A stretch of 64,000 nucleotides of DNA from Apostichopus japonicus (Eukaryota; Echinodermata; Holothuroidea; Aspidochirotida; Stichopodidae): assembly GCF_037975245.1 (NCBI RefSeq), contig NC_092572.1, forward strand, positions 7,269,501 through 7,333,500, in the 5' to 3' direction. A program made the translations under genes and the position numbers. Shown piece by piece: positions 5,560 to 47,600 of this stretch. Positions within the stretch are counted from its first letter, which is position 1, and the number at the start of each line of letters is the position of its first letter. The notes under the pieces are model-generated. The model was not told the origin of the DNA, did no database searches, and worked only from the letters and a program-made list of their open reading frames with translations.

Positions 5560-8500
5560 TCATCTGAGTAAGGATGAGTTCATCTCTAATACCCAAGCTA
5601 CAGTGTCTTCTAACATCACCATCTTGTAATGCCTGTAAGGGTAAAATAATGTAAAGATTTAAATTTAGACTTTGAAGGGAATATTCAAATTGCAGACAAC
5701 AAAAAGTAAGACATCTTTAAATAGAAATAAATTCCAGACAGTTGTTAGTGAAAACCCCATTTCAATTTCTTGTCCCCTTCCCAAAATATGGATTACTGAA
5801 GGTGGTTTGTGATTTTATTACAAATAGATGGTCCTCAAAAGCTTTACATTCTTAGTTTAACCGCATTGATGATTCATACCTGAAATATCATACATCTGCT
5901 TAGCTCTTAAATGTTGTCCTTTTTTACTTTGAATGTCATCAAAATGCACCTTTTATTTTAGAAAATTAATTATTTCATTCCTTGGATAAATGATGTAAGT
6001 ATTACAATGAAAGGGAATACTAACTATTATCAGCTGATTGGCTATACATGAAATCATTTCACTCACTCTACTGTTGCCAGATGCATTAATAACATATGTT
6101 AGGAAGATCCGCTTTTGACCTATTAATGGTGGACAATTATCAAACGAGGACCATTGGCCAGCAGAATATTCAGACATACAAGCCATTCGACTTACAATAC
6201 TTGTTGGTTAGGGATCAAATATGTCTTCTAGAAAGTCTCAAATCTTATACTTTTAAGAAATGATTGAAGAAACAAACATTTTAACCATAAAATGTTACAA
6301 ATTTTGACTCACTGTGCTAAGTTCTTAAACGTCTTCATTTTGTTCACAAAGACCTTTGGTGACAACGTGGTCTCAAAGTTTCCAGCACAGTCACAATAGC
6401 GTGTCATGTTTGGCATCTTGACCTGAGGTAAAGGTAAAGATTATAAAAATAACAGAGATAAATAAATTTTTTCTAAAGTCATTGGTGTGTGCTTACGGCC
6501 ACACCAATAGTTTTAATATCCTTTGAAGAAGGATACACACTGACCATCTGAACATGTCTGTTACATTGGGATACTATGCATTGCATGAATTTTCATAAGT
6601 TAATTGTAAACAATCCCAGCATGCACCACTGCATCTGTAATTCTGGAATGAGAAGACACACCCTGTGATTTATAAGAGTACAGATGTGTTACTGCCTGCT
6701 CACAGTGTCTGTGGGTAGGCCTCGTCCCTTACAGCCTACCATGTGTGCGTATATTCGATTTACCTATTTTTTACATACACACCTGACTCAACTGAGGTGC
6801 CGTGACCTAGATTCATGGTCTAAAAACTGTCAATACATCCTAAATGCGTGATGAGAGCACACTGGATGACTGTGTCTGTTAACGACAGGTACGCATGCAG
6901 AATGATCTGCCCTGTGGTTGGGTGAATTTGTTAAAAGTGCGCATTTGCAGTGATGAACCACCACATACAGAACGACTGGTAACTAACTGCCAGTTGTGAG
7001 AACCCTACTGAAGCTGTCATGACTTAAAACTTGCTCAATCTGTATTGAGTGGGAATGGGAGGGGGCTAAGAAGTGGAAGAAGGGAATGTGCCTCTCCCCT
7101 ATTAGAAATTCCTGTAAAATGGAGGGTGCTAAGATGCACAATGGTGCCATATTTTGTAATTTTTGAAACGACATTGACATTTTTTTTGGCATTTAGGGTT
7201 GTACTCCAAATACATGTAATATATTTACGTATCAGACTCTAGGAATTTTGAAATATTCTGCCTGCCAGTGGAGGAGGGGGGTGGGGGAATGGCTGAGCCC
7301 ATCAGATGGTTTCAAAGCCCTCCAGAAGTATACATGGTTGTTATCTCTGGTAAGCTGTAGGCATACTGACCGACTTTTCACAATTTTCCATGTTAAGAAG
7401 GGAAGTCTAGTCAGGTCATGTTCGGTTGAATATTGTAAGAAAATTTTCATCATTACCACCTTTCAAGCGCTTGTTGTATTCCAAGTTTAGTGATACGCTC
7501 TCCTAACACATCGGATCTTTCAGAAGATTTAGCCATGATATTCCATTCCATTCCATGATAGCCATGATATTCCATAAAAAGATATTCCATTCCTTTAGCA
7601 GACAATTCAAGTCCACATCATGTCAGTTTCAGCTAGTTTCCTTAAGGTTCAATTTTTTGTTTTAACTTTGTGTATCTCCCTATGGAACAATGAATGCCTT
7701 ATAGTTTATTGGTTAATCTGACCAAGGTATTTTTTACCACACGCGAATCAGAGCAGTCCGTGGCTTCCATTTCTTGCTGTCAAAATACATCCAGCATTAC
7801 AAAGAAAACTGATAAATAAATGTTAACTTACCTGGTGACATTTTGAACAGACTACATCCTGTAGAGTAAATGCCATTGAAGCGCGATTAACTGCTTCTAT
7901 CAGTGCGCCCTCTATCAGATCCACATCGTATTCGCTGTTGCATTGTTCGCACTGCCAGAGGGCACTGTTGACCAAGAAATAAAAATGTCAACAACAATGT
8001 CAGAAGTGGTGTATAAACTTGATAATAGACTAAGAAAGTTAATTTCTCAACAGCTTCTGGTTTTCTATATGATACTTAATTCAACTTTATACACCATGTA
8101 ACAACATCGTATTTACTGTTGCATTGTTCGCACTGCCAGAGGGCACTGCAGACCAAGAAATATAGATGTCAACAACATTGTTAAAAGAGGTGTATAAACT
8201 TAATAATATACTGGGAAAGTTAGTTTCAAAACAGCTTCTAGCTTTCTATTTGATACTTAAGTTAACTTGTCACTACACAGAAGCACAATTCAAGAAGCAT
8301 ACAAAAGCAGGGTGTATATATTAGGATCTTAACAAGATGACCATTACTGTATTGGCTGGGTTTGCCATCATGTAATTCACTGTCCAGCCTACAGAACTTA
8401 CACTGTGCCTCCCTCATGGTCCAAGAGGGGATCACGGCAGAGGTCCAGATCTCGACAATGGTTGCAGACTTTGCAGATGATCTCGGGAAGTACGTACGTC

Positions 8501-8616
8501 AAACACGGATCCGTCCAATCGGACTCGTCCGCAAATTCACCGACGTTGATCAGTTTTAGCAGATTACGTTTCAGTTTTGAGACTTGGATGGTAACATTTG
8601 GATCGAGAGATAAAAC
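5560..8616 (-). CDS. POLE: POLE exons 44-47: C-terminal zinc modules and tail, residues 2097-2272
   Basis: Exons: 8402-8616, 7832-7964, 6313-6422, 5560-5632. CysA ligands are C2144, C2147 (ICKVC) and C2173, C2176 (CEQC). CysB ligands are C2207, C2210 (CSKC) and C2222, C2224 (CDC). All eight match human positions with a constant offset, and this segment in the family binds the POLE2 subunit. Exon 46 would stop at once if read through (CAG TGA), but it carries the strong donor CA|GTGAGT; splicing to 5632 gives [19 protein letters not shown]..., which aligns with the human end QHYGMSYLLETLEWLLQKN. The acceptor is TTACAG at 5633-5638 and the stop is TGA at 5560-5562. The tail is more divergent than the rest. 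Tandem copies of exon 47 lie just downstream. Confidence 0.88.
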
Positions 8617-44600: not shown

Positions 44601-47600
44601 TTATTTTTTTTTTTTTTTTTAAATAGTGAAATAAAGGAACATATTATTTTCTTTTGATTTGAGGAATTTTCATGAATTATTTCACTCATTAACTGGAATT
44701 ATAAAATTAAAATTAAACAATTACAGCATGCACAATATTAGAAAACCTTAAGACTTTCGAAAGCATACATCTCATTCTGGAGATAGTTGATATAGCGGTC
44801 AAAATAGTCACATAGTGGAAGGAAAAAACTTAACCACAGCGATGGGAAACAGAGAGATTCCTTCTTTGAAATGTATCATTTGAGCTCAATTTGTGTCGAT
44901 GTTACCATCCCAAAATAAACAGGAAACAAAAGTATGATTGTGGAAAGATGAAATTTTACCTACCCTATCTTTATTGTTTTTTTTTCAATTCCTAAGCAAG
45001 TCTATTACAGATCTCATCAAGGAATGACATTTGAGTCTAGATCTTGCATAGCAATTGGTATATATAACTGTGATTATCATTTATCAGAACCTAGTCAAAT
45101 CTGACCTGATTTCTGTGTAGAAAATCTTGTCATTTTTGTAGTATTGATATATAATGTAAAATATTCTTTAGCCATTCATTTGGACATACATCATGACTAA
45201 CAAGCCTAGACTCAAAACAGACTATACATTGGAATTTTTGGTGGGGGGGGGGGGACAAGTGGTAGATGTGGATTGAGGGGCATGGGAGTTTTGAATGAAG
45301 GGGGGATGGGAGTGGTATATGAAGGGGGGATGGGAGTGGTAAAAGCTTGGTGAGAAATGCCTCTAGAGTACAATATTTGCCAGACTTTTCCAATACAATA
45401 CCAATTATCTGCTGCCATCTTACTGCAGAAAAATTGTAATCAACAGCACTGAAACAGATGCATTAGATATATTTAAGCTTCCAAGGGACATTTTTTGGGA
45501 TTGGTGGATGAGAGGGGGGGTGGCAAGGAGGAGAGGGTGGGGTCAGGGGAAGCTTGACCGTAACAAATGCTTAGGACACTATTCCAAGCCTTTTCCAAAA
45601 CAGTTACCTTGAATCTTCCGCCATCTTCCTGCAGAAAATAGTAATCAACAGCACTGATCAGTTTTTTATTCTCATCGAGAATGTCCGCCTGTCGAGAAAC
45701 AAGAAAACAAAAAAATTGTTCCACTTGGGTACTTCCAGCATCTGCTTGAGTTTGCACCGTAGCAACTGTTGCTGCATAGTCGACTTGATGCAAAATTGGT
45801 CCACGTTTTGGTGTGGAATTAAGGTTTCAAGGTCCATGAGCTACTTTCTATAAAAAGTGGCCCATAGTTCTCTGTGGAACTAGCAGCCATTTCAGCGTAA
45901 CCAGTGAGACGTTGATTGGTTGGATGTTTCGAAGAATTGATAGTTCTGGCTCTTGGCATATTTTCTCTGGGATCTAAGGGAGCTGATGTTGGATAAGTTT
46001 GTGGGAGCCATGCAGCCAATGTAACAGCTTATTTTCAACATTGGTCAGTTCTCAAATTTTAACATCAAAACTTGATATATATATATGCCTAACAATAACT
46101 TTATAACCAATGTTCCTAAAGCATTGGCTACTTAAATCACTGGTTAAATCACTGATTGTAACATTTTCGGGGATGAGCAAAATACCCTGTAAAATATATC
46201 ATTAAGTAACATTTCCACTTGTTCACTGCACAAATCCATTGGATTAATGTGATGGTAATAGAATTTAAGGACATATTGAGCTGTTCTGTACATTGCCAGA
46301 AACAATATGCACCAAACCTTTGTAGTCGAGTTGAGAACTTTTGAGAAAGTATTTTTAATTATCAGAAAATTTAGGCTCACTAAACTTAGGTTATCAAGCT
46401 TAAGGCACTCATACCTGATCTACCCAATTACAGTGTCTGTATCTTAATTTATGAAGTTGTTACTGCTCATTTCGACCAATCAGGTCGTGCGGGCCTGTTT
46501 GTGATTTGTGTGCTCTCTGGTCTGGAGTATAACATAAAAGTGAGTCAGTATTTAGACTCATCAATTACATTAGGACTTTTTTGATCTGTTATTTGTACTT
46601 CATCCTTTGTTCCTTGCACTATGCCTTACATAGAAATATAAAGTCATCCTTCAACTGTGACCAAACTCTCCCTCCCAATTTAACTACAGTGTATTATCCT
46701 GTTCGGACTCTGAAATCTTTATGTAAGGTATGGTCATTGCTGCCGCAACATAGAAAAAACGGCCTTACAGTAACTTTTTAATGCTTCATTTTGGAAATAG
46801 TTCACAGAACAATATATACTTTGTAGTACATTCTTTTCTTCTCTTTCCACTGCAGAAGAGACACTTTCCATGTAACCAAATGTGACAAAACATTCACACG
46901 ATGGATAAACTTGAACTGATGTTTAATTTTTAGTTGTTACCGGGTGCATGTTCATCAGCCATCCAACACGTTCCTGTGGCTCCTTGTACCTATCAAAGCC
47001 ATAACGAGAATCCAACTCGTCGCTCAACACTGCCCTTTGAAGGCGAGCTTCTGCTGAGGTATCTTCCCTGAAAAATGGCAAAAAATAGGAAAGATTAAAG
47101 GTATTGTTTAAAACCATAAACAAACGTCTCTTGTGACAGCAAATTCTCCTAAACTTCTGTTAAATCCTCCAAAAGATTTGTTTTCCTTCCAACATTAGTT
47201 TTATTACAGGCCATATTGCAAAACGAGAAAATAAAATTGTAAAAGCATGTTAATGCCAACCCTAATTTCTGTAATATATGTTGCCCCTTTACTTTTGTAA
47301 TGAAGATGTAATAAACATTGCCACATGGATGAAGAAGAAAAAGTTTGAAATCAACATGTTTGTGTTTGACTCTCACCATTGCTTGGAGCCACTGTTGCCA
47401 GACCTGTCAGCAACATATCTGCCACTGTTTTGGAGAACCATTACCACTGTTAGGACTGAAAGAATACCAATGTAGAAAATGCATGAAGAATGAAAACACA
47501 AACAAAGTGTAGGGATGACACAGGAAAGTCCGACAAGCAGACTTGAATATACATTGACTATGTATTGCATAGAGTCAAGACAACTAATTCCAAGGTATCA

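Follow-up and report, generated by a model that had tools for sequence, protein, structure and literature searches.

The minus strand of a 64,000-nucleotide stretch of the Apostichopus japonicus genome (RefSeq assembly GCF_037975245.1, contig NC_092572.1, positions 7,269,501 to 7,333,500; hereafter the window, in whose own coordinates all positions are given) carries a gene that, on its sequence, is animal POLE, and we have studied the short tandem duplications that lie in its introns and across its exon edges. A phmmer search against solved structures matched the reading frames to the catalytic subunit of DNA polymerase epsilon along almost the whole chain; the best match, with 2373.7 bits in nine stretches spanning chain residues 29–2263, was 7pfo_B (DNA polymerase epsilon catalytic subunit A). 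The gene model was built by spliced alignment to human POLE residues and repaired by hand where human residues were missing or the model was poor (exons 4–6, 28–30 and 40, with exon 41 lengthened at its 5' end). Exon 1 was not located in the window; the model comprises exons 2–47, which read from 47067 down to the stop codon at 5560 and join into 2,253 stop-free codons before the terminal stop. All modelled introns are GT-AG, and the 45 of them have a median length of 618 bp and a total length of 34,745 bp. The model holds a single set of splice sites, the original ones, which keep the frame open. An original prediction, made by a reader from the sequence of this DNA, had used an exon numbering that agrees with our model and had proposed that the POLE introns contain many short tandem duplications, some of which had copied a splice boundary. 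Both features were recovered, and the boundaries copied number eight.

Duplications were sought with three methods. Tandem Repeats Finder returned 48 rows for the window, and self-BLAST gave 58 local direct pairs with a score of at least 30, compared with 0.02 per shuffle in 60 shuffles. Self-BLAST missed the 78-bp repeat at 29.4 kb, probably because repeats with a small offset were merged with the main diagonal, and we therefore used a banded local aligner with a drop-off rule, which found 116 local pairs scoring at least 36, with none in 15 dinucleotide shuffles (shuffle maximum, 34). The tandem similarities thus lie far above background, and the duplications that had been listed at 8.7, 9.9, 13.0, 26.8, 29.4 and 44.4 kb were all present. 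In self-BLAST and the banded scan, the duplications are local, head-to-tail and in direct orientation. A control with the reversed sequence also gave local matches, and the 25 listed all belonged to repeats, either simple or arrayed, at about 26.5, 41.5, 56, 59 and 62 kb.

The repeat pairs group into 33 clusters, of which seven with a unit shorter than 40 bp were excluded from the placement counts. Among the remaining 26, 20 lie in or touch POLE, including one (4667–5631) that is mostly past the stop codon, and six lie outside. The units in POLE have a median size of 124 bp; 17 of 19 measure 77–205 bp and the other two 41 and 277 bp. These size figures, as well as the sums of intron share given below, omit a weak cluster at 19.7–20.3 kb that is included in the 20-cluster placement test. 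In 14 hand-picked two-copy pairs, the copies overlap by 2–7 bp in six cases and by 24 bp in one, while seven have a spacer of 6–78 bp, which perhaps arose through decay.

Self-alignment detected partial copies beside all eight of the exons named in the original prediction, namely 3, 8, 11, 14, 28, 41, 45 and 47 (Table 1). The clusters cover eight splice boundaries: the donors of exons 3, 11, 14, 21, 28 and 41 and the acceptors of exons 8 and 45. At these boundaries the spare sites lie 112–337 bp from the real ones, as the predicted range of 110–340 bp implied. The edge itself is displayed by pairwise alignments for exons 3, 8, 11, 21, 28 and 45, whereas the copies of exons 14 and 41 were identified by self-BLAST, the banded scan and splice-site scoring. 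The prediction that each copy crosses a splice boundary, with six on the donor or exon-end side and two on the acceptor side, held for the acceptors of exons 8 and 45 and the donors of exons 3, 11, 14, 28 and 41. It failed for exon 47, whose alignment begins at 5631, one base inside the exon, and stops one base short of the acceptor; because the copying starts at its second base and the extra copies, being past the stop codon, are not intronic, exon 47 is not a splice-edge copy. The donor of exon 21, whose copy includes just four exonic bases, had been overlooked.

Table 1. POLE, the duplications at its exons and the intronic tandem duplications named in the original prediction. Spare-site distances are in bp from the real site.
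Feature	Coordinates	Strand	Basis or identity	Spare-site distance
POLE, coding exons 2–47	5560–47067	minus	phmmer to 7pfo_B; spliced alignment; open frame	
Duplication over exon 3 donor (exon 45608–45688); copy 45283–45452	45283–45657	minus	70% over 178 columns	206
Duplication over exon 8 acceptor (exon 38652–38759); copy 38847–38898	38718–38898	minus	81% over 52 columns	130, upstream
Duplication across the donor and 3' end of exon 11 (36121–36367); copy 35635–35954, two blocks	35635–36231	minus	69% over 235 columns	337
Duplication over exon 14 donor (exon 33025–33153), unit 107 bp; copy 32841–32982	32830–33089	minus	Self-BLAST, banded scan, site scoring	112
Duplication over exon 21 donor (exon 28391–28548); copy 28083–28231	28083–28394	minus	69.5% over 164 columns	163
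Duplication over exon 28 donor (exon 23136–23345); copy 22904–23049	22904–23173	minus	83% over 149 columns	124
Three-copy duplication over exon 41 donor (exon 12315–12386); two copies in 12035–12216	12035–12333	minus	Self-BLAST, banded scan, site scoring	113
Duplication over exon 45 acceptor (exon 7832–7964); copy 8104–8268	7923–8268	minus	87% over 165 columns	181, upstream
133-bp unit, about 3.2 copies, over last coding exon 47 (5560–5632); copies 5207–5498	5207–5631	minus	Tandem Repeats Finder, pairwise alignment	
Tandem duplication within an intron (135 bp x 3; exon edges not covered)	8693–9106		Tandem Repeats Finder, banded scan	
Tandem duplication within an intron (92 bp x 2.9; exon edges not covered)	9968–10238		Tandem Repeats Finder, banded scan	
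Tandem duplication within an intron (about 198 bp x 2; exon edges not covered)	12992–13388		Self-BLAST, banded scan	
Tandem duplication within an intron (about 120 bp x 2; exon edges not covered)	26833–27074		Tandem Repeats Finder, banded scan	
Tandem duplication within an intron (78 bp x 2; exon edges not covered)	29434–29593		Tandem Repeats Finder, banded scan	
Tandem duplication within an intron (108 bp, 96% alike, and an 88-bp unit; exon edges not covered)	44381–44682		Tandem Repeats Finder, banded scan	

The copied sites differ in their state of preservation. The spare donor of exon 3 is degraded, retaining its GT but scoring 0.8 compared with 8.6 for the original, while the spare acceptor of exon 8 retains its AG and scores 7.1 compared with 4.1. 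Exon 8 is the weakest of the exon-edge pairs: its BLAST score of 30 was reached in one of 60 shuffles and falls within the range of the distant pairs (24–38), whereas in the banded scan it scored 50 against the shuffle maximum of 34. The spare donor of exon 11 has a 9-mer identical to that of the original (junction 36121; copy 35784). GT is retained in the copy of exon 14 and AG in that of exon 45; of the two exon 41 copies, one has an in-register GT and the other has lost it. The spare donors of exons 14, 21 and 41 are at 32913, 28228 and 12202, and the spare acceptors of exons 8 and 45 at 38889 and 8145. The spare donor of exon 28 (AAG/GTAAAT at 23012) scores 8.8 compared with 9.6, and the spliced aligner preferred it to the real one, an example of how copied splice sites can mislead gene predictors.

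The distances within the duplications bear on their origin. Over 12 pooled alignments, identity is higher in exonic than in intronic columns (86.2 and 81.4%, respectively), with Jukes-Cantor distances of 0.152 and 0.214 and a ratio of 0.71; an exon that had never changed should give a ratio of one half, and an exon without constraint a ratio of one. The exonic part is the more alike in eight of the 11 alignments holding both types of column, as would be seen if the exon were under constraint and its copy were not.

The copied splice dinucleotide (GT or AG) is retained in eight of nine aligned sites, compared with a neutral expectation, computed at each family's own divergence, of 7.1 (P = 0.41). 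Four of the nine score at least as high as the original (expected, 3.8), and seven of the nine copied sites scored have a position weight matrix score of at least 3.5. Among these nine sites, we detected no selection in dinucleotide retention, site scores or the summed score change given below.

The exon-edge copies also do not exceed the number expected from random positions, a comparison that the original prediction had put forward. Boundaries are covered by eight of the 20 clusters with a unit of at least 40 bp, compared with 8.55 ± 2.07 at random (P(≥8) = 0.70, P(≤8) = 0.50). When only tolerated placements were allowed, that is, when a cluster lay neither inside an exon nor over two boundaries, 7.42 ± 2.11 were expected (P(≥8) = 0.48). 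This test is an updated repeat of one on 17 hand-curated families, performed before the 5' extension of exon 41 and without the 19.7–20.3 kb cluster, in which eight were observed and 8.03 expected under independent placement (P = 0.60), with a circular-shift mean of 8.06; when at least 10 bases were required on each side, six families remained and 7.3 were expected. Targeting of duplications to exon edges thus gave no excess over random placement in these 20 clusters of one gene, in which a small excess would be invisible. Purifying selection on the real exon would keep exon copies recognisable for longer and would inflate the count rather than mask an excess.

The POLE duplications are very probably old, independent short tandem duplications that arose by ordinary neutral mutation at random along the gene. 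The duplications, the overlap with boundaries at the random rate and the neutral-like retention of copied sites are the parts of this explanation that were observed directly. As to mechanism, the most plausible source of the short tandem duplications is error-prone repair, either of staggered breaks or of paired nicks; they would land randomly along the gene, those that damage exons presumably being purged by selection. A duplication across a donor would yield two donors and one across an acceptor two acceptors, and splicing would keep the outer site, i.e., the upstream donor or the downstream acceptor. Because use of the outer site would leave the messenger unchanged, a duplication over a single boundary would be tolerated and nearly neutral. 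The inner copy would become intronic, go unused and decay neutrally, which would explain the position of every boundary copy on the intron side.

Comparable duplications have been described elsewhere. In rice, tandem duplications are enriched among mutations of 50–200 bp and are ascribed to patch repair of adjacent nicks (PMC7971508; see also Vaughn & Bennetzen 2014). Tandem duplications also result when breaks with overhangs are end-joined in mouse embryonic stem cells (PMC5730883). The rice duplications resemble those of POLE in size range and head-to-tail form, but an outgroup was used to polarise them and most are below 125–200 bp in length, whereas those of POLE are diverged and undated and belong to an animal gene.

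Several observations weigh against an origin by ordinary neutral mutation. The share of duplications in rice drops beyond 125 bp (PMC7971508), yet nine of 19 POLE units are longer. Cluster density is nominally higher in the gene than outside (0.48 and 0.27 per kb; 20 and 6 clusters; binomial P = 0.22), although the difference is not significant and the tendency to duplicate is not clearly special to POLE. The exonic part is no more alike than the intronic part in three of the 11 alignments (those of exon 8, of one copy of exon 41 and of one copy of exon 47). About 33 identical bases cross the donor junction of exon 11 and its copy in a pair that is 69% alike as a whole, gaps counted, and this identity possibly reflects recent local conversion or constraint. 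The summed score change of the copied sites is −12.6, compared with a neutral −22.1 ± 10.4 (P = 0.19), so the copies fell less than expected. Finally, none of the eight boundary-spanning offsets is divisible by three, for which the chance is (2/3)^8 = 0.04; because this pattern was noticed after the fact, we treat it as a lead only.

The lack of offsets divisible by three is also what one would expect if some inner sites served as alternative sites, regulated or noisy, whose transcripts enter nonsense-mediated decay. Splicing at each of the eight spare sites, a set that excludes the second, degraded copy of exon 41, is predicted from the sequence to cause a premature stop, inside the extension in seven cases and through a frameshift in exon 28, whose spare donor is among the five best-scoring of the 2,022 intronic GTs, itself included. 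However, random intronic extensions would usually run into stops as well, and equally strong sites occur elsewhere in the introns about once per kb for exons 8, 11, 14, 41 and 45; they are rarer for exon 28 and much commoner for exons 3 and 21. We consider such alternative sites unlikely, and less likely still is a stronger form in which several inner sites are still recognised and divert some POLE transcript to early-stop frames, the decay-triggering set being tolerated or used by selection.

It is likewise very doubtful that duplications were targeted to splice boundaries, or selectively retained there, so as to make spare sites preferentially. Eight boundaries are copied in a single gene and most copies retain a GT or AG that scores near the original, as this would predict; against it stand the placement counts (8 compared with 8.6 expected), which with 20 clusters have little power against a weak excess, and the lack of any surplus in site retention. 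It is extremely improbable that dispersed repeats, matches of low complexity or errors of assembly account for the similarities: the window does contain microsatellites, minisatellites and 13 weak distant direct pairs (BLAST scores 24–38), the best of which the exon 8 pair does not exceed in BLAST score, but the pairs are local, direct and far above shuffles, and the aligned exon-edge pairs are 69–87% identical, so that the 13–31% of columns that differ, gaps counted, are too many for haplotype or assembly duplicates, and an assembly artefact was rejected on this ground.

In the original prediction, the spare sites had been offered as a route to intron gain or new exons not known to be described for this gene. 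A literature search for polymerase epsilon together with intron gain by tandem duplication found nothing, and one on partial duplication of exons gave a single paper, which concerns amphioxus globins; the route itself, in which a duplication crossing a boundary makes a new intron, is already published. Intron gain by tandem duplication was reported by Gao & Lynch (2009) and, for ATP2A1, by Hellsten (2011), as reviewed in PMC3443670, and one intron gain in Drosophila resembles a tandem duplication (PMC2809761). In the reviewed cases, as in POLE, a short local intragenic tandem duplication supplies copied splice signals; there, however, the new intron was made and used, whereas POLE has a single modelled set of sites. 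The closest parallel is a potato RdRp gene, in which a tandem duplication crossing an intron-exon boundary created a new intron (PMC4974935). The POLE duplications span such boundaries in the same manner, while the potato intron is backed by RNA reads and the POLE copies are known from DNA. The POLE copies are unrealised examples of a known raw material for intron gain. They provide a quantified one-gene example in which tandem duplications cross boundaries at the rate of random positions and decay as if neutral. Should this hold generally, ordinary genes would commonly contain the raw material from which tandem duplication makes introns, and realised gain must be rare.

The further proposal that introns of this gene grow mainly by short tandem duplication is not supported. 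The extra copies that can still be recognised in introns total 3,794 bp, or 2,368 bp if the 77-bp array described below is excluded, which is 7–11% of the 34,745 bp of intron and a lower bound because older duplications would be unrecognisable. A literature search for intron expansion via short tandem duplications found nothing.

Other repeated structures occur in the introns. Intron 4 contains about 19 copies of a 77-bp unit (41379–42881), which also show a higher-order period of about 320 bp (94% matches). Long imperfect palindromes, 65–82% identical to their own reverse complement, lie at 18252–18394, 35847–36034 and 9890–10230, the last overlapping the 92-bp tandem array; these are perhaps remnants of hairpin transposons.

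Outside POLE, the window begins with the end of a retroelement (1–1935), an open frame with reverse-transcriptase RNase H and integrase domains that we take to be Gypsy-like. An unbroken frame of 714 codons with an XPG N-terminal domain (49834–51975) adjoins POLE in the opposite orientation, and its product presumably resembles asteroid-type proteins. A single open frame at 60552–61562 has a weak match to sulfotransferase, below the Pfam cut-off.

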